From IMG/VR virus record IMGVR_UViG_3300044837_000127, positions 1 to 53,102 of that record: 53,102 bases of DNA. One strand, written 5' to 3'. Shown here in pieces: positions 8,318 through 47,163 of the stretch. The position numbers were made by a program, and so were the translations under genes. The notes beneath the pieces are model-generated. The model saw nothing but the letters and a program-made list of their open reading frames with translations, was not told the origin of the DNA and ran no database searches. The first letter of the stretch is position 1; the number at the start of each line of letters is the position of its first letter. This DNA comes from a virus.

Positions 8318-8331
8318 TGACGGTGCGGTCA
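8318..8331. promoter_or_regulatory. TGACSGnnCSGTCA operator site 1 with leftward promoter
   Basis: TGACGGTGCGGTCA. On the minus strand it forms -35 TTGACC, a 16-bp spacer and -10 TATGGT (8305-8310), ahead of the acidic repeat protein. The rightward side reads CTGACG, so it lacks the full -35 box. Confidence 0.75.
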
Positions 8332-8378
8332 ATAGGGGCTATGTGGACCGGCGATAAATATTTGGCTATGCCAAGCGC

Positions 8379-9263
8379 ATGTCATTCGCCCATCGTCGAA
8401 TCGATCTGGAATTCCAGCTAGGCCAAGGCGATTTTGGCAAAGCGGACTTCGATACCGTCCGGGTTTCCGGGTTGCGGGTCACGGCCACGGTCACGCGGTC
8501 GGGCGGCGCCCAAATGAGCGAATTAAACATGCGGGTCTTCGGGCTCCCGCTGGACGTCATGAACAAGCTGACGATCCTGAACATCCTTCGTCAGTATGAC
8601 GCCCGCCGCAACACCGTGGTCTTTTCGGCCGGCGATGATGGCAGCGTGGCGACATGCTTCATCGGCAACATCGTGGAAGCTTGGGCGGACATATCGCAGC
8701 CCGAAGGCGCCATGTACGTCCGGGCGGCCAGTGGCTATCTGGACTTGCTGCAGCCGGTGGCCCCGACCAGCTACAAAGGTGCGGTGGATGCGGCTTTCAT
8801 CCTGTCGGGGCTGGCGGCCCGGATGAATCCGCCGTTGACGGTGGAAAATAGCGGGGTGTCGGTCCAGCTCAGTAATCCGTATCTGGCCGGAACGCTGCTG
8901 GACCAGATCCGCGCCATCGCCCAGGCGGGCAATTTCAATTGCGTCATTGACGATGTAAACCGACGGTTGGCGATCTGGCCGGCCAACGGTGCCCGCGGCG
9001 GCCAGCGAACGGTGGTCGGGCCCGACACCGGCATGGTCGGCTATCCGTCATATACCCAGAGCGGCATTCAGCTAACGATGCTCTACAATCCGGCCATTGC
9101 CTTCGGTACGGAAATCCACGTGGAGTCCCAGCTCTTGCCGGCATCGGGCGGATGGATGGTCGCCCAGGTTTCGCATGATCTGGAAAGCGAGGTTCCGGGC
9201 GGCAAGTGGTTTACAAGGGTAGAGTGCGGCCTGATCGGTCAGGCGGTGCCGATCATCACTTAA
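8379..9263 (+). CDS. Baseplate hub protein
   Basis: 294 aa. Opens with a beta-rich domain (IDLEFQLGQGDFG, then RVSGLRVTATVTRSG), then AQMSELNMRVFGLPLDVMNKLT, typical of hub proteins of the gp27/gp44 class. The central part (GLAARMNPPLTVENSGV...LLDQIRAIAQAGNFNCVIDD) is also conserved in that class. The C-terminus repeats a strand-turn pattern (HVESQLLPASGGWMVAQVSHDLESE). It forms the centre of the baseplate and precedes the spike gene, as expected. No ribosome site is evident upstream. Confidence 0.75.
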   Translation: MSFAHRRIDLEFQLGQGDFGKADFDTVRVSGLRVTATVTRSGGAQMSELNMRVFGLPLDVMNKLTILNILRQYDARRNTVVFSAGDDGSVATCFIGNIVEAWADISQPEGAMYVRAASGYLDLLQPVAPTSYKGAVDAAFILSGLAARMNPPLTVENSGVSVQLSNPYLAGTLLDQIRAIAQAGNFNCVIDDVNRRLAIWPANGARGGQRTVVGPDTGMVGYPSYTQSGIQLTMLYNPAIAFGTEIHVESQLLPASGGWMVAQVSHDLESEVPGGKWFTRVECGLIGQAVPIIT

Positions 9264-9311
9264 CCACAGAGCCCTAGCCGCCCCCGCCCCAGCGTGATAA
9301 TCTCCCGCCCC

Positions 9312-9893
9312 ATGCCGGACGAATCCTATAAGGGCCAAGCGCGCATTCCCGACGCGGGGGGCGACTTTAACGAGCTCGCCTTTGTTTTCCGTCAGCTTTC
9401 CAGCGCCCTGGCCACCAGCCAGCCGGTTCTGGTGCAAGCGGTCGGTGCCGATGGTCTGACGGTCGACGTCCAGCCAATGGTGGCCCAGATCGACGGGGAG
9501 GGCAACGCAACGCCCCACGGGGTTATCCACAATGTTCCGGTACTCCGGGTCCAGGGCGGCACCAATGGAATTATCGTGGATCCGGTGGCCGGCGATATCG
9601 GCATGGCGGTCATTGCCAACAGGGATATCAGCAGCGTGAAGGCCAACCGCGCCCCCAGCAACCCCGGCTCGCGCCGGCAATTCGACTGGGCGGATGCGAT
9701 CTATATTCCGGGGATTCTCAATTTGACGCCCATGCAATTCGTCCGGGTCGGTGGTGCCGGCATCGCGCTGGAGGCGCCGCTGGTCACCGCGAGCGATAGC
9801 ATGCAAGTCGGGGCTGGCGCCACTGGGGTCATCACCGATATTACCGGACGGGTGGCCACGTTCGTCAAAGGCATCCTGGTGGAGCTCGCATGA
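9312..9893 (+). CDS. Baseplate spike protein (Gp138 N-domain/gpV-like)
   Basis: 193 aa from ATG 9312; an alternative GTG at 9294 would add six residues. The N-terminal half forms an OB-like domain (VDVQPMVAQIDGEGNATPHG, VLRVQGG...IIVDPVAGDIGMAVIANRDIS), matching Gp138/gpV spike proteins. The C-terminal half is a repetitive beta segment (LEAPLVTASDSMQVGAGATGVITDITGRVATFVKG) likely to form the trimeric needle. No clear ribosome site. The stop overlaps the next gene's ATG. Confidence 0.75.
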   Translation: MPDESYKGQARIPDAGGDFNELAFVFRQLSSALATSQPVLVQAVGADGLTVDVQPMVAQIDGEGNATPHGVIHNVPVLRVQGGTNGIIVDPVAGDIGMAVIANRDISSVKANRAPSNPGSRRQFDWADAIYIPGILNLTPMQFVRVGGAGIALEAPLVTASDSMQVGAGATGVITDITGRVATFVKGILVELA

Positions 9894-10520: not shown

Positions 10521-10708
10521 GGTGTGTGGCCCGCGCGAAGAAGCGCCTCTGCGATATCCCCGGCCAGCCGCGCCGCTTCGTCCGGACATAGTTCGATCGC
10601 TACGCCGGTCACTTTAGGGCCATCCAATTTGGCGAAATTTAACGTCACGCCTTCCGCGGTTGGAGTCACCATTGCGCGCAGGCCGCTACGGAGATTGAAG
10701 CCGCTCAT
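10517..10708 (-). CDS. Small hypothetical protein
   Basis: 63 aa: MSGFNLRSGLRAM, then strands (VTLNFAKLDGPKVTGVAIEL) and a C-terminal helix (PDEAARLAGDIAEALLRAG). Starts in an ATGA overlap with the upstream gene and is second in the cassette. No family recognised; the compact strand-helix layout and tight coupling support a real gene. Confidence 0.6.
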   Translation of the reverse strand: MSGFNLRSGLRAMVTPTAEGVTLNFAKLDGPKVTGVAIELCPDEAARLAGDIAEALLRAGHTP

Positions 10709-10941
10709 GCCGCGTCGTTCTGCCCGTTATAGGGCGTATCGAGCGGCGGCGGGAGGACACTTTCCAGCGCCCGAATCTCCGCCATGGTTCCGGCAATAGC
10801 CATCGCCCTTTCGCTGTCGAGCCACGATCTTTTGCGCCGATAGATTTCGATCATTTCGCGCCGCGACCGTAGCAAATTGCACAACTCGATTCTGATTTCG
10901 CGGCACGTCAGGCCATGATTCTTGCCCTCAAATTTTTCCAT
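10705..10941 (-). CDS. Small charged helical protein
   Basis: 78 aa, first gene of the leftward cassette behind operator site 2. Ribosome site AGAAGGAG lies about 10 bases upstream of the ATG. Rich in Arg/Glu and predicted helical (IRIELCNLLRSRREMIEIYRRKRSWLDSERAMAI), so it could form a coiled coil. Stop overlaps the next ATG. No family recognised. Confidence 0.65.
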   Translation of the reverse strand: MEKFEGKNHGLTCREIRIELCNLLRSRREMIEIYRRKRSWLDSERAMAIAGTMAEIRALESVLPPPLDTPYNGQNDAA

Positions 10942-10984
10942 TTCGAATCGCTCCTTCTCTGTCCCGACTCGTATTATCGAGTGC

Positions 10985-10998
10985 TGACCGAGCCGTCA
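10985..10998. promoter_or_regulatory. TGACSGnnCSGTCA operator site 2 with leftward promoter
   Basis: TGACCGAGCCGTCA. Minus strand: -35 TTGACG, 17-bp spacer, -10 TAATAC (10971-10976), ahead of the four-gene cassette 10941-10222. The rightward side reads CTGACC, so it is a weaker -35 toward the gp25-like gene at 11046. Confidence 0.8.
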
Positions 10999-12415: not shown

Positions 12416-12429
12416 TGACCGTGCCGTCA
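12416..12429. promoter_or_regulatory. TGACSGnnCSGTCA operator site 3 with leftward promoter
   Basis: TGACCGTGCCGTCA, flanked by T and A on both sides so both strands carry TTGAC. Leftward: -35 TTGACG, 17 bp, -10 TAAACC (12402-12407) immediately before the membrane protein gene. Rightward, a TATAAT lies 20 bases after TTGACC, a poor spacing. Confidence 0.8.
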
Positions 12430-12665: not shown

Positions 12666-14093
12666 ATGGCTACCAACGTCCCGCAACCGACCTTCGGACC
12701 CAACGGTTTTATCGCACCGCTGGAGTCCGCAATTCTGGCCGGGATACTGGCGGATTACAACGCGGCGTTCGGTGGCAACCTCAATCTGGACCAGACCACC
12801 CCGCAAGGCCAGCTCGCGGTCAGCATGGCGGCGGTGCTGGGCTATGCGAACGATTTATATCTGGCGTACACCAACGGCGTCGATCCGGCCTTTGCGAACG
12901 GCCGGATGCAGGACGCCATTGCGCGCATCTATTTTCTGGAGCGCAAGCCGGCGCTGCCAACGACGGTCCAGGCGGTTTGTAGCGGCCTGACCGGGACCAT
13001 CATTTTCAGCGGCGCCAAGGCCATCACCACCGACGGCCACATTTTCCAGGCGACGGCCACCAGCACCATTCCGGCCGGCGGCTCGGTCACGCTGCCCTTT
13101 GAGTGCCTGGAAACCGGGCCGATCCCATGTCCGCCGGGGGCGCTCAACAGCATTTATCAAACCCTCCCCGGCTGGGACAGCGTGACCAATCCCGATTACG
13201 GCATTTCGGGGCAGGACGTGGAGAGCCGCGCGGACTTCGAAGAGCGTCGGATTGAATCTGTTGCGATCAATGCGGCCGGTACGTTACCCGCCATTCACGG
13301 ATCGGTCCATGGCGTGGCCGGAGTGCTGGATGCCTATGTGACCGAAAACAATACTGGTTCGCCGGTGACGATCGGCGGTGTCAGCATCGCCGCGCACAGC
13401 CTGTACGTATGCGTTGCCGGTGGTGCGCCAGCCGACGTCGCCAAGGCCATCTGGCGCAAGAAAAATCCGGGGTGCGGCTACACCGGCGCCACCACCGTGA
13501 CCGTGGTGGACGATAATAGCGGCTACTCGATTCCCTATCCCAGCTATTCGGTCAGTTTTCAGACGGCCGCACCGTTGCAAATCGTCTTCGCGGTCAGCAT
13601 TGCGTCCAACGCCCTCATACCCGCGGATGCGGAGGCCCAGGTGGCGGCGGCCATTATCGCGGCGTTTACCGGAAGTGACGGTGGGGAGCGGGCCAAAATC
13701 GGCGCGACCGTCTTTGCCAGCCGTTTCTATGCGAACGTGGCAGCACTGGGGGCCTGGGGACAATCGATTATCGCCATCAATGTCGGATCGGCCAACAGCC
13801 CGGCGGCCACTTATACCGCAAGCATTTCCGGTCTGACCATGACCGTCACGGCGGTGGCGAGCGGAACGCTTGCGGTCGGTCAGACCGTAACCGGCGCGGG
13901 GTTGCTGCCGGGCACGGTCATTACCGCGTTTGGCACCGGAGCTGGAGGCACCGGCACCTATACGCTTGGCAAATCCCAGACGGTGGCAAGCGGTACCCGC
14001 AAGTCGGTATCGGCGACCGCGGACAGCGTGACGGTGAATATCGACCAGGTTCCGACGCTGGACGCCGCCGATGTTCATGTGACGATTGTTTAA
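12666..14093 (+). CDS. Baseplate J-like wedge protein
   Basis: 475 aa. The family pattern is clear: [23 protein letters not shown] near residue 45, [19 protein letters not shown] near residue 158, [21 protein letters not shown] near residue 187, and the final [21 protein letters not shown]. Baseplate J proteins form the wedge ring that triggers sheath contraction. An extra Gly/Thr-rich module, also present in sheath and decoration proteins, is inserted near residues 381-450, just before the conserved C-terminal strand. The stop overlaps the next ATG (TAATG). Confidence 0.9.
13810..14015 (+). repeat. Virion-protein module, copy 2 (in baseplate J)
   Basis: Encodes [18 protein letters not shown], then VGQTVTGAG, then [19 protein letters not shown]. 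Same pattern as the module at 2617-2820 and the pair at 50764-51141. Confidence 0.8.
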
Positions 14094-19958: not shown

Positions 19959-20326
19959 GCGCTCTGCCCGGCAACCGGCAAGCGCCGCCGGTCCATGTAA
20001 AGCGTGCCGCTGTCGAATAGCCGCGCCACGTACTCCGCGACCGGTGGACGGCCGGCCGCCTTGTCGGCATCGTTGAGCATCCGGGCGATCCGGGTCAGCT
20101 CGCTACGGGCTTGACCGCAGATCGGTTGAGTCCCCCCGTGCCCACCGCCTCGCGTGGCGAACATCGCTTTGACCAGTGGTGCGAGGATTTTACCCTCAGC
20201 CGCCATGCGATTATTGAAATCCACCTGACATTTGCGCCGGCAGAACCGGCGGCCATAACGAACCTCATAAGATTGGCCGCACTGGGGGCACAGGGCGGTT
20301 TCCGGGGGTTTTGGGGTACCTGACAT
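19955..20326 (-). CDS. Zinc-ribbon protein, unknown function
   Basis: 123 aa. N-terminal zinc motif: CPQCGQSYEV, then RRFCRRKCQ, i.e. Cx2C and Cx3C, the layout of small FCS-like or ribbon domains. The rest is helical and charged. It lies downstream of operator site 4 and is the last leftward gene of the replication side. Start chosen at ATG 20326 because the predicted promoter begins transcription around 20350. Could be a DNA- or RNA-binding accessory protein. Confidence 0.65.
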   Translation of the reverse strand: MSGTPKPPETALCPQCGQSYEVRYGRRFCRRKCQVDFNNRMAAEGKILAPLVKAMFATRGGGHGGTQPICGQARSELTRIARMLNDADKAAGRPPVAEYVARLFDSGTLYMDRRRLPVAGQSA

Positions 20327-20371: not shown

Positions 20372-20385
20372 TGACGGAGCGGTCA
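20372..20385. promoter_or_regulatory. TGACSGnnCSGTCA operator site 4 with leftward promoter
   Basis: TGACGGAGCGGTCA. Minus strand: -35 TTGACC, 17 bp, -10 TACAAG (20358-20363), reading into the zinc-ribbon gene. The site overlaps the stop codon of the DUF1643 gene. The rightward side reads GTGACG, and no rightward gene is close. Confidence 0.8.
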
Positions 20386-29886: not shown

Positions 29887-29929
29887 GGTTTTTCTCCCGA
29901 TTGCTGTTGCGACTCGGAATAACGAGCAT

Positions 29930-29943
29930 TGACGGGGCGGTCA
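29930..29943. promoter_or_regulatory. TGACSGnnCSGTCA operator site 5, divergent promoters
   Basis: TGACGGGGCGGTCA with full TTGAC on both strands. Leftward: TTGACC, 17 bp, TATTCC (29916-29921), driving the replication operon. Rightward: TTGACG, 16 bp, TATTTT (29951-29956), then only six bases to the ATG at 29963, so that mRNA is probably leaderless. Confidence 0.85.
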
Positions 29944-29962: not shown

Positions 29963-30226
29963 ATGATTCAAGATTATCCGGACGAATGGATTGATGACGC
30001 GATTGTTCGCGCTGCATCGTCCACCTTCGATGTAATTCCGCGCGCACGGCTCATTAAATGCCGCGAAAAAATGATCGCGATCAGAGAAACCGCCCGCAAA
30101 GAAGTGGTCCGAATCGCCCCCGGCATCCGCCCGTCCGAAGACGAGGATATCCAGACGGCTCTATATTTACGGGCTGGCGATATTCTCGGAACGAATCGCA
30201 AAAGCGGATGGATGCCCAAGGCGTGA
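29963..30226 (+). CDS. Small hypothetical protein, probably leaderless
   Basis: 87 aa. Helical N-terminus (DYPDEWIDDAIVRAASSTFDVIP, charged middle KCREKMIAIRETARKEVVRI). First gene of the rightward early unit. The -10 box lies six bases before the ATG, so transcription would begin at or next to the start codon. Its end overlaps the helicase start. No family recognised. Confidence 0.65.
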   Translation: MIQDYPDEWIDDAIVRAASSTFDVIPRARLIKCREKMIAIRETARKEVVRIAPGIRPSEDEDIQTALYLRAGDILGTNRKSGWMPKA

Positions 30227-31872
30227 CCATCACCCTTCGTCCCTACCAAGATCAGATGGTCCAAACGGTCCGTCAGGCATGGGCCGATGGCGCCCAGAAT
30301 GTGCTGATGCGGGCCGATACTGGCGCCGGTAAAACGGCCATTCTAGGGTATATCCATAATGAGCATTCGGGCGCTTCGGCCATCATAGCGCACCGCCAGG
30401 AATTAGTCGGACAGCTCAGCTTAACCCTCGCACGCTATGGACTCCGTCACGATCTAATCGCTGCGGACGCCACCAAGCGCGCTATCGCTCGCGCCCATGT
30501 GGAAGAATTCGGCCAGTGCTATTTCACCCCCGGCGCCCGCGCCAAGGTGGTCAGCATTGACACCCTCATAAGAGCGGACGGGCTGGACTCCTGGGCGGCC
30601 CAGGTCACGCTGTGGACCAATGACGAAGGGCACCATCTGGTCCGGGATAACAAGTGGTGCAAGGGCGTTTCGCTCTTCACCCATCCTGAATGCCGGGGCC
30701 TGTTACCGACGGCCACCCCGAAGCGGGCGGACGGCAAGGGCCTGGGGCGCCACGCGGACGGTTATGCCGATGTGATGGTGGAAGGGCCGCCCATGCGGTG
30801 GCTGATCGAAAATGGCTATCTAACGGATTACAAGATCGTCTGCCCACCAACCGATATTCGCCAATTCCTGGAGGAAGAGACGCCAGGCGCCAGCGGCGAC
30901 TGGTCGCCCAAACAGCTCCGGAAGGCGGCCCAGCGCTCGCATATCATCGGGGATGCGGTCCAGCATTATTGCCGATGGGCGCATGGCAAGCGCACCATCG
31001 CCTTTTGCACCGACGTGGACACCGCGGTGGAGACGGCCGCCCGCTTCAACGCCGCGGGCATTCCGGCCGCTACGCTTACGGGCAAAACGGACGATCGGTT
31101 GCGGCGCCACATCATCAAGCAATTGGAGCGGGGCGAAATCTGGGTGCTTTGCGCCGTCGATATCATTTCCGAAGGCTTCGATCTGCCCGCCGTGGAATGT
31201 ATCATCATGGCCCGGCCAACCGAGTCGCTGGCCCTCTTTATGCAACAATTCGGCCGCGCACTTCGAATCATGGCCGGCAAGCAATGGGCCATCATCATCG
31301 ATATGGTCGGCAACGTGGTACGGCTGGGCGGCCCCCCGGACCGGCCGCGCGTCTGGTCGCTGGACCGGCGGGACAAACGATCGGCCGCCAAGGAAGGAAT
31401 CCCCTATCGGATATGTGTCGAATGTTTCCAGCCGTATGAGCGATATTACCGGGAATGCCCATTTTGCGGCCACTATCCGGAGCCGGAGGGCCGATCGCAA
31501 CCCAATCAAGTAGATGGTGACCTGGAAGAGCTGGATGCGGCCACGCTCGCGCGGCTCCGAGGCGAAGTCGCCGCAGTCGATATGTCCGAATGGGACTATG
31601 CGCACCAGCTCAACCTAAAGCACGCCCGGCCCGAATGGATAACCACCCATTGCCGCCGGCACCGCGAGCAACAGGCGGCCCAGGCGGAGCTCCGCGCCAC
31701 CATGGACCGCTGGGCTGGCCCTCGGCATTATCACGCGGGGCGAACCGATTCGCAGATCCAGCGGGAATTTTATCTGACTTTCGGTCTGTCCATCTTGGAG
31801 GCGATGGCGCTGGGGACGGCTGATGCTTTGGCGTTAACCGCGAGGGTTGACGAGGCGGTCAGTGGTGGATAA
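30208..31872 (+). CDS. SF2 DEAD/DEAH-type helicase
   Basis: 554 aa from ATG 30208; GTG 30223, overlapping the upstream stop, is an alternative. Motifs: LRPYQDQMVQTVRQAW (Q-like), Walker A ADTGAGKTAI, Walker B TNDEGHHL, ATPKRADGKGL, late CAVDIISEGFDLPAVECIIMARPTES (motif V) and MQQFGRALRIM (motif VI). A zinc ribbon follows (ICVECFQPYERYYRECPFCG). Similar proteins are replicative or recombination helicases of phages. The last codons contain operator site 6. Confidence 0.9.
   Translation: MDAQGVTITLRPYQDQMVQTVRQAWADGAQNVLMRADTGAGKTAILGYIHNEHSGASAIIAHRQELVGQLSLTLARYGLRHDLIAADATKRAIARAHVEEFGQCYFTPGARAKVVSIDTLIRADGLDSWAAQVTLWTNDEGHHLVRDNKWCKGVSLFTHPECRGLLPTATPKRADGKGLGRHADGYADVMVEGPPMRWLIENGYLTDYKIVCPPTDIRQFLEEETPGASGDWSPKQLRKAAQRSHIIGDAVQHYCRWAHGKRTIAFCTDVDTAVETAARFNAAGIPAATLTGKTDDRLRRHIIKQLERGEIWVLCAVDIISEGFDLPAVECIIMARPTESLALFMQQFGRALRIMAGKQWAIIIDMVGNVVRLGGPPDRPRVWSLDRRDKRSAAKEGIPYRICVECFQPYERYYRECPFCGHYPEPEGRSQPNQVDGDLEELDAATLARLRGEVAAVDMSEWDYAHQLNLKHARPEWITTHCRRHREQQAAQAELRATMDRWAGPRHYHAGRTDSQIQREFYLTFGLSILEAMALGTADALALTARVDEAVSGG
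31848..31861. promoter_or_regulatory. TGACSGnnCSGTCA operator site 6 with rightward promoter
   Basis: TGACGAGGCGGTCA, with one mismatch to the consensus, inside the end of the helicase gene. Rightward: -35 TTGACG, 17 bp, -10 TAATGT (31870-31875), ahead of the Ala-rich gene. The opposite strand reads CTGACC. Confidence 0.8.
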
Positions 31873-31904
31873 TGTCGTTACGAATCGAACGAAAGGATGG
31901 GCCG

Positions 31905-33090: not shown

Positions 33091-33539
33091 TGCCGGAATG
33101 GACCGTCCTGCCCGGCGATTGCCGCCAGACGATGCGCCTTTGCTTGGCGCCCGACTCGGTGGATAGCATCGTGACGGATCCACCATATGATCTGTTGTCG
33201 ATTCACGAACGCTTCCGTAATTCCGTCCGAACCGAAAGCACCCGATCGTCCAGCGGGCCGCATCAACGCACGGCGCGGGGCTTTATGGGTCAGACCTGGG
33301 ACGGCTCCGGCGTGGCGTTCGATCCGGACACATGGCGCGAAGCGTACCGGGTGCTCAAGCCGGGCGGCCATCTGATCGCTTTTGGCGGCTCGCGGACCTA
33401 TCATCGGCTGGCGTGCGCCATAGAGGATGCCGGCTTTGAAATCCGCGATCAGATTATGTGGCTTTATGGGTCGGGGTTTCCCAAGTCGCATAATGTTGGA
33501 GGCGTTTATCCCCTTGACCCACCCTCCGAAACGTTCTAA
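33090..33539 (+). pseudogene. DNA methyltransferase, N-terminal fragment
   Basis: 149 aa, of which about 137 are methyltransferase. DNA methyltransferase motif IV DPPYDL lies near residue 30, followed by FDPDTWREAYRVLKPGGHLIAFGGSRTYHRL and IRDQIMWLYGSGFPKSHNV. The frame then enters the IS at 33501 and ends after 13 foreign codons. The C-terminal piece (SAM-binding FAGSG motif) is at 35582-35893. The expected ~150 middle residues with the target-recognition region are absent, so this enzyme is dead. Confidence 0.85.
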
Positions 33540-33547
33540 GAGAGGGA

Positions 33548-34447
33548 ATGACCAATCGCAGCCCCTCCGCATCGCCCGCTTTTCCGGTCCGCCAGTTCTT
33601 TGAACGCTTCCCGAATGAACACGCCTGCCTAGAGCATATCATGGCGGTGCGCTTCGGCGGGACCGTTCTCGACTGCCCGTCTTGCGGTGTCCCCGACGTT
33701 CAATTCCACAAGCTGCGCGAGAGGCGTGTTTATGCCTGCCCGCATTGCCGGTTTCAGATTGCCCCCACCGCCAACACCATCCTGCACGATACCCGGACCC
33801 CGCTCGTCTCCTGGTTCTATGCGATGTATCTTTTCTGCACGACGCGCCACGGGGTGAGCGGCAAGGAGCTACAGCGCCAGCTCGGCGTGACCTATAAGAC
33901 CGCGTGGCGCATGGGTCAGCAAATCCGGGATCTGACTACGCTGGCGGACGTAAGCGCGCTGTTGAGCGGCCATATCGAAGCTGACGAAGCCTATGTCGGC
34001 GGGCGCCGGCCGGGCAAGCGGGGCCGCGGCGCTGCCGGTAAAACTGTAGTGTTCGGCATGGCAGAACGGGGCGGTCCGATCAAAACGGCCATTGTCCCAG
34101 ATGCCAAGCGCGCCAGCCTTCGCGAGGCGTTGCTGACGCGGGTCGAGCCGGGCTCGATCGTCTCGACCGACGAATGGATGAGCTACGGTTTATTGACTGG
34201 CGACGGCTACCGGCACGGCCACGTCAAGCACGCGGCAAAGGAATGGTCGCGGACCGACCCGGACGGCGTTCGGCATTCAACCAACCATGTTGAGTCGTTC
34301 TGGCTGATGTTCAAAAATTCGATCCGCTCGACGCACATTCATATCAGCCAAAAGCACATGGCCCGTTACCTGTCGGAATTCACTTTCCGCGCGAACCATC
34401 GCGAGCGGGAGAATGCGATGTTCGATGTGCTGGTTGGGGCGCTTTGA
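33548..34447 (+). CDS. IS1595-family transposase
   Basis: 299 aa. N-terminal zinc ribbon: LDCPSCG and YACPHCRFQ. Then PTANTILHDTRTPLVSWFYAMYLF, GVSGKELQRQLGVTYKTAWRM (HTH), and the catalytic region GHIEADEAYVGGRRPGKRGRG (first Asp) and VSTDEWMSY (second Asp), ending with HSTNHVESFWLMFKNSI (His/Glu). This is a complete ISXO2/IS1595-type enzyme with no frame damage. It starts 47 bases inside the left end of the element. Confidence 0.95.
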   Translation: MTNRSPSASPAFPVRQFFERFPNEHACLEHIMAVRFGGTVLDCPSCGVPDVQFHKLRERRVYACPHCRFQIAPTANTILHDTRTPLVSWFYAMYLFCTTRHGVSGKELQRQLGVTYKTAWRMGQQIRDLTTLADVSALLSGHIEADEAYVGGRRPGKRGRGAAGKTVVFGMAERGGPIKTAIVPDAKRASLREALLTRVEPGSIVSTDEWMSYGLLTGDGYRHGHVKHAAKEWSRTDPDGVRHSTNHVESFWLMFKNSIRSTHIHISQKHMARYLSEFTFRANHRERENAMFDVLVGAL

Positions 34448-34571
34448 CCAGTCGGTCTAATCGAGCGTCAAACTCGGCAGGATCGACTGGACCGATGGCC
34501 TCACCCTCAGCCTGACGGATGAACGATTCGAGATCGTCGGTTGCGAGTGCGCGCGATAAGGTCAGGCGAGT
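34380..34571 (-). CDS. Small IS-associated protein (antitoxin-like)
   Basis: 63 aa from GTG 34571. MTRLTLSRALATDDLESFIRQAEGEAIGPVDPAEFDARLDRLV then a Ser/Arg-rich end. Its 3' end overlaps the transposase gene on the opposite strand. Similar small proteins often sit beside transposons and toxin genes in alphaproteobacteria; function unproven. Start uncertain. Confidence 0.5.
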   Translation of the reverse strand, partial: TRLTLSRALATDDLESFIRQAEGEAIGPVDPAEFDARLDRLVKAPQPAHRTSHSPARDGSRGK

Positions 34572-34613
34572 CACCGCACCCGTATAGACTAACTCATTTG
34601 GTTTTGATAGAAG

Positions 34614-34653
34614 GGGGCCGGACGTGATGCCCGGCCCCTGCCGGTTCAACCGG
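34614..34653. terminator. Two adjacent GC hairpins inside the IS
   Basis: GGGGCCGG (34614-34621) pairs with CCGGCCCC (34631-34638); CCGGTT-c-AACCGG follows at 34641-34653. They lie after the transposase gene and before the passenger gene. No T run is clear. Confidence 0.5.
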
Positions 34654-34720
34654 CTAGGGTCTTAACAAGGCCATCATGGCCCCACCTCCTTTCTCCCGTG
34701 ATGGGAAGGGAGTTGATAAT

Positions 34721-34748
34721 CGGCCCACCGGGTGCAACCGGTGGGCCG
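34721..34748 (+). terminator. 11-bp stem hairpin inside the IS
   Basis: CGGCCCACCGG (34721-34731) and CCGGTGGGCCG (34738-34748) form a perfect stem with a 6-base loop, followed by CATTGTTTT. Likely ends rightward transcription before operator site 7. Confidence 0.65.
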
Positions 34749-34812
34749 CATTGTTTTACCGCAACAACCCGTAATGAATCAAGGCTAAGTCTTTGATATC
34801 ATTATCCGCCGT

Positions 34813-34826
34813 TGACCGAGCGGTCA
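34813..34826. promoter_or_regulatory. TGACSGnnCSGTCA operator site 7 (inside the IS)
   Basis: TGACCGAGCGGTCA, a perfect palindrome around a 2-base centre. Rightward -35 TTGACC is complete; the best -10 (TAGTTT at 34832) has a short 14-bp spacing, so promoter strength is unclear. A ~200-base leader follows before the ATG at 35042. The leader contains CTCCTAGGAG inside a CGTGC...GCACG hairpin and a CCCGGC...GCCGGG hairpin; an overlapping weak frame (34857-35075) is not convincing as a gene. Confidence 0.65.
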
Positions 34827-35041
34827 GTCTGTAGTTTCTCCTAAGATTCCATTATGATGCTCGCCATCCATCCGGTCTTGGTACACCGGGCGGTCGCGCT
34901 TTTGCGCCGAGACTCCAGTCGCCTATGTCGGGCGGCCTACGGAATAAAACACCCTCACGGGGAATACGTGGGGCGTGCTCTCCTAGGAGTCTCGCACGTA
35001 CCAACCACCCGGCGCCAGCCGGGAAGGGCTGGAGGCGAGCG

Positions 35042-35545
35042 ATGCGAAACGGGACGATCCTGGGGCTGGCAGTAATCGTCGGCGTCGGAACGATGGTGGC
35101 GCTGCGTTCGAACCCTCCCGCCGCTCGATCCGCACCGGCCATTGTCACGCCTTCGCCAGCCGAAGAAGCGCCGGTGTTGCCGCCCGCAACCGCCTCCGGC
35201 GACCCACTTTCCGACAACCCCCGCATAGCTGCGTATCAACAGGTAGCAGCCTCTATCGACCGGAAAATTGCCGTCGCTAATGTAGTGGCCGATTGCGGCA
35301 TTCGGGACATGGACTGGTACAACAGCGTGACCAGACGGCTTGAGGATTATCGGAACGGTCCGGCTGTCGCGCCGCTTATGATGGTGATGAACAGCGCGGA
35401 GCTGCGTGAGGCCCAAGGCTTCGATATGCAAATCACCCGTCAGCACGAACAATGGTTGAGGCCGAATGGTCGGTCGGATTGCGCCCGGATCGCCCGGGAG
35501 CCCTTTCCGTACAATGACGCCGCGTACGATCCGGTAGCCGATTAG
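35042..35545 (+). CDS. Membrane-anchored protein carried in the IS
   Basis: 167 aa. MRNGTILGLAVIVGVGTMVAL is an N-terminal membrane anchor. A Pro/Ala-rich spacer follows, then a soluble helical part with two Cys (VADCGIRDMDWYN and RSDCARIAREPFPYN) that could form a disulfide in the periplasm. Ribosome site GGAGG is 8 bases upstream. It is passenger DNA between the transposase and the right end. No family recognised; an exclusion or envelope role is only a guess from topology. Confidence 0.65.
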   Translation: MRNGTILGLAVIVGVGTMVALRSNPPAARSAPAIVTPSPAEEAPVLPPATASGDPLSDNPRIAAYQQVAASIDRKIAVANVVADCGIRDMDWYNSVTRRLEDYRNGPAVAPLMMVMNSAELREAQGFDMQITRQHEQWLRPNGRSDCARIAREPFPYNDAAYDPVAD

Positions 35546-35581
35546 GTTCGTTTTTACGGGTGGGTCAAGGGGATAAACGCC

Positions 35582-35893
35582 ATGCGCTATTTGTGTCGGC
35601 TCGTCACTCCGCCGGGCGGGACGGTGCTGGACCCGTTTGCCGGCTCTGGCAGCACGGGCAAAGCGGCGATACTGGAGGGATTTTCGTTCATCGGCTGCGA
35701 AATGACCCCGGAGTATATCCCGATTGCCGAAGCCCGGCTGGCCCATGCGCTCGCCAAGTATCTGGCCGCCCAGTCGTGCCGGCGGTGCGACAATACCGGG
35801 GACATTCATCGCGCTGATGGTGCCTACGTGGGGCCATGTGATTGCGGCGCGCCGAGTCTATTGACCGACCCGTCACCATTGGCTACCCCATGA
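35582..35893 (+). pseudogene. DNA methyltransferase, C-terminal fragment
   Basis: 103 aa starting right after the IS end: MRYLCRLVTPPGGTVLDPFAGSGSTGKAA holds the SAM-binding FAGSG motif, then GCEMTPEYIPIAEARL, followed by a CRRC/CDC zinc pair. It is in the same frame as the N-terminal fragment across the element, but the middle of the enzyme is missing. The gene end contains operator site 8 and overlaps the regulator start (ATGA). Confidence 0.85.
35862..35875. promoter_or_regulatory. TGACSGnnCSGTCA operator site 8, promoter of the HTH regulator
   Basis: TGACCGACCCGTCA. Rightward: -35 TTGACC (35861-35866), 17 bp, -10 TACCCC (35884-35889). The first ATG of the regulator touches the -10 and a second lies at 35896, so transcription from here would favour the second ATG as a leaderless start. 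Suggests autoregulation. Confidence 0.75.
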
Positions 35894-36426
35894 CCATGGA
35901 CTCTCTGGACCCCTTCACCGCCGAACCGTCCGACCGCGCCTTGTCGGTGCTGGAGGCGGCAACCGCCGAAGCGCGAAGGGTCGGACTCGCCTTTATCACG
36001 CGGGACGGAGTGGCCGCGCGGGCCGGCGTTCCGGCGGGATCCATGTGTCTCTTCGGGTCCATGACCGATATCAAACAAAAGGTGGCCCAGATGGACCCCA
36101 GCCTACAGACCGACCAGCTCAACCGATACGATGCCGCCCGCGGTGAAACCGACCAGCGAATCATGGACGCGGCGCTGACGCTCGCGGTGACCGGCCGCTA
36201 TGATCGAATCACCCGCCGCCAGATTGCCAATGCCGCGGGCGTAAGCCCCGCGCGGGTCAGCCTGCTGGCCGGCGATATGGACGGGATGCGCGATGCGATT
36301 ATGCGGGCCGCGGTGACCGCCGGTAATGCCATCGTGGTCGCCCAGGGACTTGCCGATCGGCACCCGGCGGCGCTGGCCGTATCCGACGAATTGAAACAAG
36401 CTGCACTTGCGGCTCTGTCCGACTAG
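35890..36426 (+). CDS. Tandem TetR-like HTH regulator
   Basis: 178 aa. Two TetR-type DNA-binding motifs lie in one chain: residues ~36-57, ITRDGVAARAGVPAGSMCLFG, and residues ~107-127, ITRRQIANAAGVSPARVSLLA. Each is preceded by an Ala-rich helix, as in TetR N-domains. There is no room for the usual ligand-binding domain. One chain could contact both halves of a short palindrome. Its own promoter holds operator site 8, and TetR family sites such as TTGACCAnnTGGTCAA of RutR resemble the TGACSGnnCSGTCA set found here. Start 35890 overlaps the upstream stop; 35896 is possible. Confidence 0.75.
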   Translation: MTMDSLDPFTAEPSDRALSVLEAATAEARRVGLAFITRDGVAARAGVPAGSMCLFGSMTDIKQKVAQMDPSLQTDQLNRYDAARGETDQRIMDAALTLAVTGRYDRITRRQIANAAGVSPARVSLLAGDMDGMRDAIMRAAVTAGNAIVVAQGLADRHPAALAVSDELKQAALAALSD

Positions 36427-37457: not shown

Positions 37458-39862
37458 CCCTCCCCGTGCCCCTCCAGCCGCTGGGCTTGTACCGACAATG
37501 GATTACGTACCGGCTGGTCCCCCATCCGACGAAGGCCGGCAAAACCGACAAAATCCCCTGTAGCTGGCGGACCGGGGGCGATATCGATTTGATGAATCCC
37601 GCCAATTACGGCAGCTATGACGAAGCGGCGGCCGGCGCCCATCTGGCTGATATCGGCTATGGCCATGGGGTTGGCTTCGTCTTCACCGATGCGGACCCCT
37701 TCTGGTTTCTCGACATAGACGGGGCGTTCACCCCCGCAGGCGAGGGGGCAGACCGCCAATGGTCGATCATCGCGCGCACGCTCTGGGACCAGCTCCATGA
37801 AGCGGCCTGGGAATATAGCCAGTCCGGCAACGGACTTCATGCCTTCGGCTCCGGGCCGCTCCCCCCGCACGGCACGCGCAACAATGGGTTAGGTCTGGAG
37901 CTCTACCATGCCCGGCGCTTTGTCGCGCTGACCCTCAATACGTGCAACGATGGGTCCGCCGCGGCGGTCATCCCCGCCATTGCCGACGTCGCGACCACCT
38001 ATTTCCCTGCCTTGGTCGATACCGGTGGTGCGATCGATGATGCGTGGACCACACAAGCCGTCCCCGAATGGTCGGGCCCGGAGGATGACGAAGAGCTGTT
38101 ACGGATGATGCTGGCGAGCCGCACCGCCGCCCAGGCGTTCGGCAACGCTGACGGTACCACCGGTAAGGCGACCGCCGCGCAATTATGGGCCGGCGAGACG
38201 CAGGGCTACGGCCAGAGCGAAGCGGACGCGGCGCTGGCCAGCCACCTGGCGTTCTGGACCGGCAAAAATTGCGAACGCATTGAACGGCTGATGCGCCTCA
38301 GCGCACTGGCCAGAGAGAAATGGGACCGCGGCTCCCCCTATCTGGTCCCGACCATCCTTCGGGCGTGCGCAACGGTCAGCAAGGTGCTTCAGGCGTCGGC
38401 GGCCACCGCGGCCCAACCGATTCCGGAAGACGCGGCCAAGGCACTTGCGATCGGACAGGAATTCGGCGGCTACATTCCGCCGGCCAGCTACGGGGCGTAC
38501 TTCTCCGGCGCCGTTTATGTCATCGCGCACAATCAGATCTTCACCCCCGGCCATGGGCTGGTGGGGGCAACCGCTTTCGATACGATTTATGGGGGCCGCA
38601 AATTCATCAAGGATGGCGAGGGCCGGCCGGCCAGCATCACCGCGAGCGCCTGGGATGCCTTCCGCATGTGCGAAATGTGGCGACCGCCGATCGCATCGGA
38701 TACGTGCTTTCGCCCGGAGCATCCAACCGCGGCGCTGGTCGACATAGAGGGCCGCGCGTTCGTCAACACCTATGCGCCCATCATTACCGCTCGCGCGGCC
38801 GGCGACCCGGCGCCCTTCCTGGATTATCTGGCGCGGCTGATCCCCGACGAACGGGACCGGCGCATCATATTGTCCTACATGGCGGCGGCCATCCAGTCGC
38901 CTGGCCGTAAATTCCAGTGGTGGATCGTGCTGCAGGGCACCGAAGGCAATGGCAAAACCACCATTCTTCGCATCATGTCGCACGCGATCGGCCACAGATA
39001 TACCCATCTGGTCAACCCGGAGGCGATGGCGAAGACGGGCGGCCAATTCAACCTCTGGGTCCAGGGCAATTTGTTTTGCGGCTTCGAAGAAATCTATATC
39101 GGCCGGCGCCGCGATTTCCTGGAGACGTTCAAAGCCACCGTGACCAATGACCGGCTGGCTATGGAAGGCAAGGGCACCGCCCAATTCACCGGGGACAATC
39201 GGTGCAACGGTATCATGCTGACCCAGCATCCGGACGGCGTGCCCATTACCACCGATACCCGCCGCTATGCCGTCTTTCTGACCGCCCAGCAGAGCGAAGA
39301 GGATCTGGCCCGCGATGGGATGCTGGGCGACTATTTCCCCAAATTATACGATTGGCTGAAGGGCGAAGGCGAGTGGTCCGGCCATGGCGTGGATTACGGC
39401 TATGCGGTGGTTAACGATTATCTCCAGCGCTACGTGCCGGACGAAGAATTCAATCCGGCCGGCGCTTGCCAGCGAGCGCCAAAAACCAGCAGTTACGGTG
39501 CGGTCATTCGCGAGTCGCTCGGCAATGCCGAACAGGAAGTGCTGGAGGCGATCGAGCAGGGCCAGACGGGCTTCCGGGGCGGTTGGGTCAGCTCGCATTA
39601 TCTGGTGCTGTTGCTGGAGCGAATCCGGATCAGCATCCCGCCGGGCAAGCGGCGCAAATTTATGAATTCCATCGGCTATGACTACCACCCGGCAATGCCC
39701 GACGGGCGGGTCAATAATCCCGTCCTGCCCGATGGGGTCAAATCGCGGCTGTACGTGCGGCGCGATCATCTGGTGGCGCTCAACGTGGTCAACCATGTGG
39801 CGATCTGCGATGCGTACACCGCGGCCCAACAGCAATTACCGAGCGAACGGGCGGTGGGTTAA
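37454..39862 (+). CDS. Primase-polymerase/SF3 helicase fusion
   Basis: 802 aa, GTG start overlapping the methyltransferase stop. The N-terminal third resembles archaeo-eukaryotic primases of phage type: DKIPCSWRTG, GVGFVFTDADPFWFLDIDGA with metal-binding Asp pair, QSGNGLHAFGSG and LELYHARRFVALT. Near residue 490 begins a D5-like superfamily 3 helicase: Walker A QGTEGNGKTTILRIM, Walker B NLFCGFEEIYIGRRRDFLETFKA. This should start and unwind phage replication forks. The layout is like NrS-1-type primases. The gene lies next to the candidate origin. Confidence 0.85.
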   Translation: MTLPVPLQPLGLYRQWITYRLVPHPTKAGKTDKIPCSWRTGGDIDLMNPANYGSYDEAAAGAHLADIGYGHGVGFVFTDADPFWFLDIDGAFTPAGEGADRQWSIIARTLWDQLHEAAWEYSQSGNGLHAFGSGPLPPHGTRNNGLGLELYHARRFVALTLNTCNDGSAAAVIPAIADVATTYFPALVDTGGAIDDAWTTQAVPEWSGPEDDEELLRMMLASRTAAQAFGNADGTTGKATAAQLWAGETQGYGQSEADAALASHLAFWTGKNCERIERLMRLSALAREKWDRGSPYLVPTILRACATVSKVLQASAATAAQPIPEDAAKALAIGQEFGGYIPPASYGAYFSGAVYVIAHNQIFTPGHGLVGATAFDTIYGGRKFIKDGEGRPASITASAWDAFRMCEMWRPPIASDTCFRPEHPTAALVDIEGRAFVNTYAPIITARAAGDPAPFLDYLARLIPDERDRRIILSYMAAAIQSPGRKFQWWIVLQGTEGNGKTTILRIMSHAIGHRYTHLVNPEAMAKTGGQFNLWVQGNLFCGFEEIYIGRRRDFLETFKATVTNDRLAMEGKGTAQFTGDNRCNGIMLTQHPDGVPITTDTRRYAVFLTAQQSEEDLARDGMLGDYFPKLYDWLKGEGEWSGHGVDYGYAVVNDYLQRYVPDEEFNPAGACQRAPKTSSYGAVIRESLGNAEQEVLEAIEQGQTGFRGGWVSSHYLVLLLERIRISIPPGKRRKFMNSIGYDYHPAMPDGRVNNPVLPDGVKSRLYVRRDHLVALNVVNHVAICDAYTAAQQQLPSERAVG

Positions 39863-40690: not shown

Positions 40691-41263
40691 ATGACGGATG
40701 CGCTTAATAACGGTGGTGCGGTGGCATTGGCGGTGCCGGTTGACGATGCGACCGCCCCTCCCACTGATTCGGGTGGTTCGCGCGTGCGCACGGCGCCGTT
40801 CGTCGCCCCGCCGCTGATGGTTGAATTGATTTGCGATGCGATTGCCCAGGGGCGATCGCTCATGGATATTTGCCGGGAAATTAACGTGCCGGACTCAACG
40901 GTGGATAGCTGGATTTTGCGCGATACGAAATTTGGCACCCGCTACGCTTATGCCCGGAGCAAGCGATTCGACCGCATCACCGAAGAGTGCCTGACCATCG
41001 CGGACGATCGGTCCCAGGACGATATTATCGACCACCAGGGCTTTCGGCGCCCCAATAAGGAATGGATTGCCCGATCGCGGGTGAAGATCGATACCCGGCT
41101 GCGACTGCTGGCCCTTTGGGATCCGAAAAAATACGGGGCCAAGCTGGAGCTCAATGGCGATCTGACCACCCGCAATTTGAATATCAACGTCCCGGTGGAT
41201 CCGGTCCAGGCGGCCCATGCCTATGCGGACCTGATGCGCGGCCGGCCGCCGGTTGACGGTTGA
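40691..41263 (+). CDS. Terminase small subunit
   Basis: 190 aa. HTH in the middle: MDICREINVPDSTVDSWILRD, then RYAYARSKRFDRITEECLTIADD and RSRVKIDTRLRLLALWDPKKYGAKLEL, the typical phage TerS pattern. It recognises the packaging site and loads the large subunit, encoded at 43057. A disordered N-terminal 35 residues precede the HTH. A hairpin and operator site 9 follow before the tiny genes. Confidence 0.85.
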   Translation: MTDALNNGGAVALAVPVDDATAPPTDSGGSRVRTAPFVAPPLMVELICDAIAQGRSLMDICREINVPDSTVDSWILRDTKFGTRYAYARSKRFDRITEECLTIADDRSQDDIIDHQGFRRPNKEWIARSRVKIDTRLRLLALWDPKKYGAKLELNGDLTTRNLNINVPVDPVQAAHAYADLMRGRPPVDG

Positions 41264-41450: not shown

Positions 41451-41457
41451 TCCGATT

Positions 41458-41471
41458 GACCGACTCGTCAG
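41458..41471. promoter_or_regulatory. TGACSGnnCSGTCA operator site 9 with rightward promoter
   Basis: TGACCGACTCGTCA, one mismatch to the consensus. Rightward: TTGACC (41457-41462), 17 bp, -10 TATCAA (41480-41485), ahead of the tiny membrane genes from 41582. Confidence 0.8.
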
Positions 41472-41581: not shown

Positions 41582-41752
41582 ATGGGTGTGCTGCTGGTGA
41601 TTGGAGTGCTGGTGATGCTGGGCGGAATAGCGGCGATGGACCGGACCACCGGAGCGCTGCGGCGTAAGGTTGCCTGGGCGTCGACCGGCGCCGCGGTGCT
41701 GGTGGTGTCCATGCTGCTGGTGGCACCGCCCGACGTCTGGATCAGGCAATGA
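41582..41752 (+). CDS. 56-aa two-helix membrane protein
   Basis: MGVLLVIGVLVMLGGIAAMD, a basic loop (TGALRRKVAW), then AAVLVVSMLLVAPP. Ribosome site GGGAGGGG. Pinholin-like size and topology. First gene behind operator site 9 and coupled to the next gene by an ATGA overlap. Function unproven. Confidence 0.65.
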   Translation: MGVLLVIGVLVMLGGIAAMDRTTGALRRKVAWASTGAAVLVVSMLLVAPPDVWIRQ

Positions 41753-41889
41753 CCGGGCTATGTATGGCGGTCGATTGGGGACCCTTGGCATTTATCGGGC
41801 TTTTAGTGGCGGCAGTTCTAGTGCCCATAGGGATTTATGAAATTATCGATATTCAACGTTCTATTAATCGGATGCGGAAGGGTAAGTAG
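41749..41889 (+). CDS. 46-aa single-helix membrane protein
   Basis: MTGLCMAVDWG, helix LAFIGLLVAAVLVPIGIYEII, basic end (QRSINRMRKGK). Starts in an ATGA overlap with the two-helix protein gene. Together they could form a small membrane complex, for example in lysis; this is inference from topology. Confidence 0.6.
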   Translation: MTGLCMAVDWGPLAFIGLLVAAVLVPIGIYEIIDIQRSINRMRKGK

Positions 41890-42069
41890 GTGCCGGCGAG
41901 CCCCCAGCTCCAGGCGACGCTTGATTCGCTGGGGGCGACCCTGGCCGCCAGCACTCGCCAGCCAACGGTCCGAACGGAGGGCGATGAACGGATTTGCGCG
42001 GCCTGCTGGCGCCGATGGAGGCTCGCGGAAGAGCGGCCCGACTGCGAACGGGGCTGCAATGGCCGGTAA
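41890..42069 (+). CDS. 59-aa Cys-cluster protein
   Basis: GTG start with GGAAGG eight bases upstream and directly after the previous stop. ERICAACWRRWR and RPDCERGCNG give Cx2C and Cx3C pairs, a likely zinc site. Unknown function. Confidence 0.55.
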   Translation: MPASPQLQATLDSLGATLAASTRQPTVRTEGDERICAACWRRWRLAEERPDCERGCNGR

Positions 42070-42301
42070 TTATGGAGCTTGGGGCCGCGGGCGGGCCTTT
42101 ACGGCACATCGGGCGACGGCCAAGCGGGCCAAACTTAACCGCTTCGCCCAGGCGCTGGCGGATAGCGCGACCGGAAGCATTAGCGAGGCCGCCCGCGCCG
42201 CCGGCATCAGTCAGCAAACCGGGAGCATTTACTTCCGGGAGATTTGTGGGGCGATCAATGCCGCTCAACGGGCGGCGGGGTATGGAGACTGGGCGACATG
42301 A
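42059..42301 (+). CDS. Small HTH protein
   Basis: 80 aa. Basic N-terminus, then SISEAARAAGISQQTGSIYFREI, a helix-turn-helix. It could be a DNA-binding helper of packaging or a local regulator. An in-frame ATG at 41984 is possible (GGAGG upstream) but would lie over the previous gene. Stop overlaps the next ATG. Confidence 0.6.
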   Translation: MAGNYGAWGRGRAFTAHRATAKRAKLNRFAQALADSATGSISEAARAAGISQQTGSIYFREICGAINAAQRAAGYGDWAT

Positions 42302-42660
42302 CGGACCCGACAATTATCATAATCACCGCCGGATTGCTGCTGGCCGCCCTGACCGTCTTGCTGGTCCGCCGCCTGTCGCCAACCGAGCCGATCGCCGCGC
42401 CCCGGCTCTTTGGACCACCGGAACCGCCCGTGCTGGTAGTCGCCCCACAGCCAGACGAATTTTGTTTGATCACCAAGATCGGTGAGGTCGTATCGCACGG
42501 CATGGATCGGGTCGACGCCATGCGGCAATTCGGAGCGGACCGCTTTCTGACGTTCATGCCGATGCCGGACGGGACGTGCTGGTCCCTGACCGTGGTGCAT
42601 CACCCGAACGAAGCGACGGCCAAGGCCAGCTATCGGCCGGCGCCGTTGGTCACGCACTGA
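42298..42660 (+). CDS. Membrane-anchored small protein
   Basis: 120 aa. TIIIITAGLLLAALTVLLVRRL anchors it; a Pro-rich linker follows and then a soluble part (DEFCLITKIGEVVSHGMDRVDAMRQFGADRFLTFM...CWSLTVVHH). ATGA overlaps at both ends. Probably faces the cytoplasm or periplasm; no family recognised. Confidence 0.65.
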   Translation: MTDPTIIIITAGLLLAALTVLLVRRLSPTEPIAAPRLFGPPEPPVLVVAPQPDEFCLITKIGEVVSHGMDRVDAMRQFGADRFLTFMPMPDGTCWSLTVVHHPNEATAKASYRPAPLVTH

Positions 42661-42893
42661 TGGCAACCGCTCCGCCCGCGCCGGTAATCGACTGGTACGC
42701 CCTGGGCGGAACGGAATATCTGAACGATAAGCACATGCCGGACCGAATGTGCCGGATATACCCCACCCGCGACCGCCATAGCGAGGAAGACGAGCGGCGC
42801 TATCTGGCCGGCTGGCGAGCGGCCCAGGAAGCGGACCAGACCCAACATGCCGATATGACGGAGCGCGAAAACGTCTGGGGGTGGATGGAGTGA
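42660..42893 (+). CDS. Small hypothetical protein
   Basis: 77 aa. PVIDWYALGGTEYL, CRIYPTRDRHSEEDERRYLAGWRAAQEAD: a short ordered core ending in a helix with YLAGWRAA, a pattern seen in small phage proteins. Coupled by one-base overlaps to both neighbours. Unknown function. Confidence 0.65.
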   Translation: MATAPPAPVIDWYALGGTEYLNDKHMPDRMCRIYPTRDRHSEEDERRYLAGWRAAQEADQTQHADMTERENVWGWME

Positions 42894-43057
42894 TGGCCGC
42901 CACCAGTAATTATCGCCGCCGCCGGTTCAGCTCCACCCCGCAGCAAATTATGGAAAGGCTGGTGCGGACCGAGCCCAAGGGCGGTGCGGCGCTCATGATC
43001 TTGCGCTGGCTGACCGATAGTGCGGCCCGTGATGGGGCGGTGCCCAAAGACGCATAA
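42893..43057 (+). CDS. 54-aa basic protein upstream of terminase
   Basis: MAATSNYRRRRFSSTPQQIMERLVRTEPKGGAALMI and an acidic end. Overlaps the large terminase start by one base (TAATG). Size and position suggest a helper in packaging, but nothing in the sequence proves it. Confidence 0.6.
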   Translation: MAATSNYRRRRFSSTPQQIMERLVRTEPKGGAALMILRWLTDSAARDGAVPKDA

Positions 43058-46220: not shown

Positions 46221-47016
46221 CAGCGCGGATCCGGTCCAGCCGGCCGCCCCCATCCGGACCGAATATCAGCGCCGGCTGGAACGCGCGGTCACCGACATGC
46301 ACAAGTCCGTCCGCTTTTGGGTGGCAGGCTGCTATCGGGTCCAGATGGCCAATGCGCCGATCGTGCTGGCCGCGGACGCACCCCCACACCATGCTGGGGA
46401 CGCATCGGCGCCTCGCGAGCTCCAGGATGCCATCCGCAAATTGTCGCGCCGGTGGCTCCGCAATTTCGACAAGCTCGCATGGAAATTGTCGGACTGGTTT
46501 GCTACCAAGGTGGAAGAGCGGTCGACCGTTGGTTTGCGGGAATCGCTGCGAAAACATGGGTTTACTGTCCGGTTCAAGCCAACGCGGGCGATGAATGACG
46601 CGGCCCAGGCGGTCGCGGCTGAAAATGTCGCACTGATAAAATCCATTCCAGAACAATACCTTAAGAGCGTTGAGGGCGCCGTGATGCGCTCCGCCCAGAC
46701 CGGACGGGATCTGAAATCGCTGGTCGACGAGCTGACCCAGATCGAAGGCATCACCCGGCGCCGAGCCAAGCTGATCGCCCGGACCCAGAACAATCAGGCC
46801 ACCGCGGCGATGACCCGCGTGCGGATGCTGGAGGCCGGAATTACCCAAGCGATCTGGGTCCATACCGGTGCCGGCAGAACGTTCCGGCCGGCCCACGTCG
46901 CCATGTCGGGTCGACGCTATAGCATCGCGGACGGCGCGGACGTGGAAGGGCGCTGGCCCGGCGTGGCCATAAACTGCCATTGCATTCAACGGCCGGTCAT
47001 TCCGGGATTTGATTAG
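46204..47016 (+). CDS. Phage head morphogenesis protein (Mu F/SPP1 gp7-like)
   Basis: 270 aa, starting 17 bases inside the portal gene. Helical N-terminal half, then the C-terminal signature ITRRRAKLIARTQNNQATAAMTRVRML, IWVHTGAGRTFRPAHVAMSGRRYSI and GVAINCHCIQRPV, typical of minor head proteins that enter the capsid with DNA. Ends before a tiny gene and operator site 10. Confidence 0.85.
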   Translation: MPAVANSADPVQPAAPIRTEYQRRLERAVTDMHKSVRFWVAGCYRVQMANAPIVLAADAPPHHAGDASAPRELQDAIRKLSRRWLRNFDKLAWKLSDWFATKVEERSTVGLRESLRKHGFTVRFKPTRAMNDAAQAVAAENVALIKSIPEQYLKSVEGAVMRSAQTGRDLKSLVDELTQIEGITRRRAKLIARTQNNQATAAMTRVRMLEAGITQAIWVHTGAGRTFRPAHVAMSGRRYSIADGADVEGRWPGVAINCHCIQRPVIPGFD

Positions 47017-47026
47017 GAGACGTCCA

Positions 47027-47152
47027 ATGCTTGCAATTTTCGCCCTTTACGCATCGCTCGTCGGCCCCGGCCCGGTTATTGAGACATGCGCGTTCCTGCC
47101 GGCCACTCGACTTTGCGTTCATCCAGGCTACCCGTGGCGGCGGGGCTATTGA
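47027..47152 (+). CDS. 41-aa small peptide
   Basis: MLAIFALYASLVGPGPVIETCAFLPA..., with ribosome site AGGAGA. The N-terminus is hydrophobic and two later Cys (ETCAF, RLCVH) could pair. Its stop is inside operator site 10. Could be a secreted peptide; low certainty. Confidence 0.45.
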   Translation: MLAIFALYASLVGPGPVIETCAFLPATRLCVHPGYPWRRGY

Positions 47153-47163
47153 CCGTCCCGTCA
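47150..47163. promoter_or_regulatory. TGACSGnnCSGTCA operator site 10 with rightward promoter
   Basis: TGACCGTCCCGTCA. Rightward: -35 TTGACC (47149-47154), 17 bp, -10 TAGACG (47172-47177). A strong terminator lies 50 bases downstream, so the first product would be a short RNA. Confidence 0.75.

Follow-up and report, generated by a model that had tools for sequence, protein, structure and literature searches.

Dispersed palindromes over the -35 boxes of a myovirus-type phage genome are probable operators of a phage-encoded TetR-type protein

Introduction

Ten palindromes resembling TGACSGnnCSGTCA are dispersed between positions 8,318 and 47,163 of the viral genome considered here. An earlier note on this DNA took them for a genome-wide operator/promoter set, which raises the questions of whether their symmetry exceeds what a promoter needs and, if so, which protein recognizes it. 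The window, i.e., the whole stretch of DNA that was analysed, spans the full 53,102 bases of its viral record, carries a direct terminal repeat of 127 bp and encodes a myovirus-type structural set comprising tail sheath, baseplate proteins, terminase, portal and major head protein. An integrase was not found among the approximately 40 window proteins scanned, and a direct nucleotide search with the window as query returned no relatives. With regard to the structural genes, the tail sheath and the baseplate wedge both match PHROG 21413 (2146-3861 and 12666-14093), and on visual inspection a similar Gly/Thr-rich module recurs between the tail sheath and the protein at 50309-51226.

The palindromes and their promoter geometry

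The sequence TGACSGNNCSGTCA occurs in eight exact copies in the 53,102-base window against 0.02 expected from shuffles, a density of 150 per Mb, and two additional sites, at 31848 (TGACGAGGCGGTCA) and 41457 (TGACCGACTCGTCA), carry one mismatch each. All ten sites listed in the earlier note thus exist, but there is no strict ten-of-ten consensus, and the start given there as 41458 is in fact 41457. An unbiased scan of every palindrome with arms of 4-6 bases and gaps of 0-15, with a p value that covers all of them, ranked TGAC-N6-GTCA first in over-representation across the window (12 copies vs. 1.2 expected, p 6e-9), with gap 6 alone raised among the gaps. The two extra copies, at 27144 and 31976, are intragenic and correspond to about the chance number. 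Gene calls made in the present analysis place eight of the ten sites between genes, although non-coding sequence makes up only 6.9% of the window (p 2e-8); at the remaining two, 31848 and 35862, the next start codon follows after 10 and 14 bp, respectively.

The proposed combination of TTGAC within the site and a TA-rich -10 box is likewise borne out. Among the site-derived TTGACs that face a gene, 10 of 12 are followed by TA at 16-17 bp, compared with 9 of 82 other TTGACs (p 5e-7), and the sites therefore extend over the -35 box into the first part of the spacer. The -10 boxes are poor at site 34813 (TTTCTC) and site 35862 (TACCCC). The GTCA arm is retained at exactly gap 6 in each site, even where no promoter faces that side, which means that the palindrome is kept beyond the need of a -35 box, as had been suggested.

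Three exact palindromes on the minus strand form putative operator/-35 elements of leftward genes, namely 8318..8331, facing gene 7689-8204(-) with the -10 box TATGGT; 10985..10998, 43 bp before gene 10705-10941(-), with TAATAC; and 20372..20385, 45 bp before gene 19955-20326(-), with TACAAG. TTGAC is present on both sides at two exact sites. One of these, 12416..12429, lies 23 bp before a small-gene cassette (12392-11393, minus strand; -10 box TAAACC), and the other, 29930..29943, is a putative divergent operator between two replication-module operons whose genes were assigned by PHROG: a leftward operon from 29886 with ssDNA-binding protein, exonuclease and polymerase, and a rightward helicase operon from 29963, with the DNA helicase at 30208..31872 (+) recognized by profile search. 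The plus-strand sites begin with 31848..31861 (one mismatch; -10 box TAATGT), located at the end of the helicase gene and before 31872-32693. The exact site 35862..35875 would serve the candidate regulator gene, a second methyltransferase and the primase; 41457..41470 (one mismatch; TATCAA) is upstream of small genes at 41582-43057 leading to the terminase, and the exact site 47150..47163 (TAGACG) is upstream of small genes at 47330-48939. The predicted targets are the divergent replication operons (29930), the regulator-primase operon (35862) and, for the most part, small-gene units among the late genes.

The tenth site, 34813..34826 (+), is exact, has a weak -10 box and is situated within an IS1595-type insertion not recognized in the earlier note, 98 bp before a passenger ORF (34925-35545) for which no relative was found in phages or in 201 sphingomonad genomes. 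The insertion (33507..35575; Pfam DDE_Tnp_IS1595) carries a transposase at 33548-34447 and inverted repeats GTTTATCCCCTTGACCCACCC, and IS copies with the same ends are found in sphingomonads; its relatives occur mainly in that group and are devoid of site 34813. The element splits a DNA methyltransferase gene, leaving its ends at approximately 33091-33539 and 35582-35893 with no obvious target duplication.

Several features of the neighbouring genes were recorded alongside. The DNA polymerase gene is apparently split: 23920-24828 and 20970-23231 each encode a pol-like part, a GIY-YIG endonuclease (23228-23884) separates the two, and the ORF at 20970-23231 additionally contains an endonuclease-like segment. 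The 273-aa protein at 31872-32693 has a long Ala/Trp/Ser/Glu/Arg-rich low-complexity repeat (AAWAAESARAAA) in its C-terminal part. A GACTCG-N6-CGAG element around the -10 box is common to two leftward site promoters (10966-10981 and 29911-29926) and is possibly a second control element.

A candidate regulator of the TetR type

The gene directly downstream of site 35862 encodes a protein of 178 aa (35890..36426, + strand) with two TetR_N-type HTH domains. The protein passes the Pfam TetR_N profile (PF00440) with 25.3 bits against a cut-off of 24 over residues 91-124, and it falls into PHROG 8723 (E 1e-26), which PHROG annotates as "unknown function". A second copy of the domain is detected in the N-terminal half with a family HMM (E 5e-9), and the protein is therefore a tandem HTH protein. 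The tandem layout is shared with Scuro and SppYZU01, in which tandem forms span 166-178 aa, while the remaining members of the family contain a single HTH in about 92-105 aa. The C-terminal ligand-binding/dimerisation domain, which occupies ~120 residues in full-length TetR/AcrR proteins, is absent, and only ~45-50 residues follow the HTH.

The TetR_N-type profile matches 197 PDB sequences, of which those shown are TetR-type. The predicted model of the homologue in MSW-3 (pLDDT 94) displays a three-helix HTH fold, whose best structure matches are TetR-family proteins, RutR among them, at an E of only ~0.01; a single-sequence fold of the window protein itself reached only pLDDT 51, too low for interpretation. 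In a control, PHROG 8723 also matched ordinary bacterial genomes, and such a match therefore carries information only within phage records. A search of 301 sphingomonad-family genomes yielded no prophage copy of the regulator, an empty answer that is no proof of absence, and scans of IMG/VR with the regulator or the helicase as single proteins gave no match.

Downstream of the candidate gene lie the second DNA methyltransferase (36500-37457), seemingly frameshifted near a G run at ~37311-37320, and a DNA primase (37466..39862, +) identified by PHROG and by relatives, the neighbourhood being the same in related phages. The 178-aa TetR-like protein is likely the regulator of the palindromes. Two other HTH candidates of the window were considered: a phage-encoded GapR-like protein in the leftward replication operon (28581-28853), which has no known sequence-specific palindrome, and the terminase small subunit (40691-41263). 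Both were set aside in favour of the TetR gene, with which the motif travels.

Association of gene and palindrome across phages

By tblastn, the regulator family extends to Klebsiella phages of the JD001 type and to Edwardsiella, Vibrio, Acinetobacter, Shewanella and other phages; PHROG 8723 likewise covers JD001-type Klebsiella phages, MSW-3, VchM-138, Scuro and others, and the genes usually reside in a replication neighbourhood of helicase, methyltransferase and primase. Unbiased palindrome scans recovered TGAC-N6-GTCA in eight gene-carrying genomes. In these de novo scans, this palindrome or a longer form of it is the leading one in G001 (44 copies vs. 2.4 expected), G003, G004, RCIP0080 and Scuro and is strong but not leading in MSW-3 and VchM-138; JD001 exhibits the same gap-6 peak as the window. 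The sites are intergenic in 13/15 cases in RCIP0080, 10/14 in JD001, 8/12 in MSW-3, 5/8 in VchM-138 and 4/5 in Scuro, with enrichment p values for these five annotated phages from 4e-4 to 2e-13, and the distance from their end to a start codon is often 41-50 bp.

A site precedes the tetR gene by 36-48 bp in four of the five annotated phages (JD001, RCIP0080, MSW-3 and Scuro), and one is also found upstream of the regulator gene in G003, G004, G332, G333, G334, G339 and G344, as it is in the window (35862); the gene match in G003 crosses stop codons. In VchM-138 and G001, no perfect site immediately precedes the regulator gene, which counts against the operator model.

Among 26 terminase relatives, the 22 without the gene have almost no sites, while the four with the gene include all three that are palindrome-rich. 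In a blind test, a DNA-pattern scan with ATTGACGNNNNCGTCAAT supplied 30 contigs that were tested for the gene, with sites counted as TTGAC-N6-GTCAA; the gene was present in 5 of 5 contigs with at least 8 sites vs. 6 of 25 others with three or fewer (p 0.003), although two of the five site-rich contigs are JD001-like, so that the five are not all independent.

The palindrome is missing in the gene-positive G026, phiPLPE, AeroV348, OsaM and SFCi1, which counts against the operator model, and it is weak in SppYZU01 and 367.14. The recognition helices of the palindrome-less gene carriers differ from those of the TTGAC group. PY6 (L086) contains five GTAGCGC-N4-GCGCTAC palindromes (7107, 8014, 12382, 19992 and 28188) located between TTGAC (-35) and TACACT-like (-10) boxes, which are likely that phage's own version of the operator. 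The differing helices and the PY6 palindrome fit a change of specificity, which they do not prove.

The distribution within genes also varies. G001 has ~35 intragenic sites against 2.1 (maximum 8) after synonymous-codon shuffling, so that in this lineage the sites cannot be promoter operators alone; the window, JD001, MSW-3 and VchM-138 have 2-5 vs. 0.6-1.1, which is near chance. A second palindrome, GTTCCC-N2-GGGAAC, was observed in G001 (L089-L091), with 8 copies vs. 0.02 expected.

Proposed mechanism and competing explanations

Since the regulator gene adjoins a site and the gene-palindrome pairing recurs across independent phage lineages, the earlier suggestion of operator/promoter sites bound by a regulator is strengthened. 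We consider it quite probable that a small, autoregulated TetR-type repressor encoded by the phage itself uses the palindromes as operators to control early and small-gene units. The operator (TTGACsgNNcsGTCA) would cover the -35 box and the beginning of the spacer of a sigma-70-type promoter, and the 178-aa protein would bind it as a dimer, or possibly as a pseudo-dimer in the tandem form. As binding would cover the -35 box, repression by blocking RNA polymerase, rather than activation, is the most likely action. The repressed units would comprise the regulator's own gene, both replication operons and the small-gene cassettes between late genes, and the role may be to shut off or delay early genes during infection.

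Phages such as T4 have a protein-defined promoter class, and the sites could similarly define middle promoters, at which an activator or temporal switch bound at -35 recruits or re-targets RNA polymerase. This is unlikely: the sites themselves supply the -35 hexamer and TA-rich -10 boxes lie downstream, but with a consensus-like TTGAC and standard spacing already there, no activator seems needed; in addition, the palindrome centre at ~-30 overlaps polymerase contacts, and repression is the action of most studied TetR proteins. That the sites are only strong promoters, symmetric by chance or drift, is highly improbable; the sites do resemble promoters, with TTGAC as an ordinary -35 box, but the invariant spacing of the GTCA arm, also without a facing promoter, and the excess of exact copies already contradict this reading.

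A host regulator exploited by the phage would fit with the similar motif recognized by host TetR proteins such as RutR and with the location of one site in an IS element whose relatives are mostly from sphingomonads. The probability of such a regulator is very small, since sphingomonad genomes hold 26 exact sites in 29 Mb (~0.9 per Mb vs. 150 per Mb here), a motif density that makes a host regulon unlikely, and the motif accompanies the phage gene in Klebsiella, Vibrio, Edwardsiella and Acinetobacter phages. More plausible, yet still on the doubtful side, is an additional role of the sites as roadblocks to transcription or in organising the genome, like that of the stoperators of mycobacteriophages, with promoters only a subset. 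The intragenic excess in G001 favours this, and so do the cluster A repressors, which combine dispersed sites with two DNA-binding domains per chain (PMC9283540), as the window protein does; the near-chance intragenic numbers in the window, JD001, MSW-3 and VchM-138 argue against it, and palindromic sites cannot be oriented as stoperators are. For the preferred repressor reading, the G001 intragenic sites and window site 34813 in a mobile element count against a purely promoter-based model.

Significance

The operators were not found described in the literature searched, which consisted of open-licence papers. The pairing of gene and sites in well-known Klebsiella, Edwardsiella and Vibrio phages appears not to have been described previously. 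The analysis provides a putative function and target set for a widespread phage gene (PHROG 8723) whose annotation does not go beyond "TetR family" or unknown and that is present in dozens of sequenced Klebsiella phages. The complete regulon, i.e., which promoters and at which start positions, is predicted for laboratory-grown phages, and temporal control in virulent phages in which no RNA polymerase or sigma factor was found therefore becomes directly testable. CP-T1 is reported to be temperate without integrase or known lysogeny genes (PMC3391216), and the system is a candidate answer to this behaviour. Tentatively, a class of virulent dwarf myoviruses that crosses lineages might run its early programme through a ligand-free mini-TetR with promoter-embedded operators, the spread of G001-type sites into coding sequence amounting to genome-wide silencing or roadblocks; such a scheme, which we regard as possible rather than probable, could also explain the reported temperate behaviour of CP-T1.

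Comparison with known systems

The earlier statement that no phage network of this form is described was too strong, since dispersed repressor sites are known from the cluster A mycobacteriophages, whose operators/stoperators are asymmetric, oriented and recognized by a two-domain monomer (PMC9283540). The window system resembles that of L5/TipsytheTRex in having a phage regulator with two DNA-binding domains per chain and many dispersed sites of one motif at promoters and between genes (10 in the window, 44 in G001). However, the cluster A sites are 13 bp long, oriented with transcription and monomer-bound in temperate phages, whereas those of the window are palindromes over the -35 box in phages in which no lysogeny genes were found, and the regulator matches TetR_N and PHROG 8723 rather than a cluster A repressor. 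By analogy, the window system works somewhat like cluster A stoperators without being a member. Phage P1 c1 is likewise a single repressor whose operators are spread across the phage genome; its site is asymmetric and 17 bp long, its protein is unrelated, and the phage is temperate.

TetR/AcrR regulators such as RutR, AcrR and EilR share the N-terminal TetR_N HTH, a palindromic operator over the promoter and likely autoregulation, but the phage family has no ligand-binding domain, is phage-encoded and appears to have a regulon across the whole phage genome. The double-TetR protein Mce3R also has two TetR units per chain, but its sites are non-palindromic (PMC11667970). The tetR-like genes of phiPLPE, CP-T1 and 138, speculated to have been co-opted from bacteria (Comeau et al. 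2012, PMC3391216), belong to the same gene family, and 138 has the same palindromes; that paper describes no operators, and the words promoter and palindrome are absent from its text. The version that appears undescribed so far is that of lytic dwarf myoviruses, with a TetR-type regulator and palindromes that overlap the -35 box.
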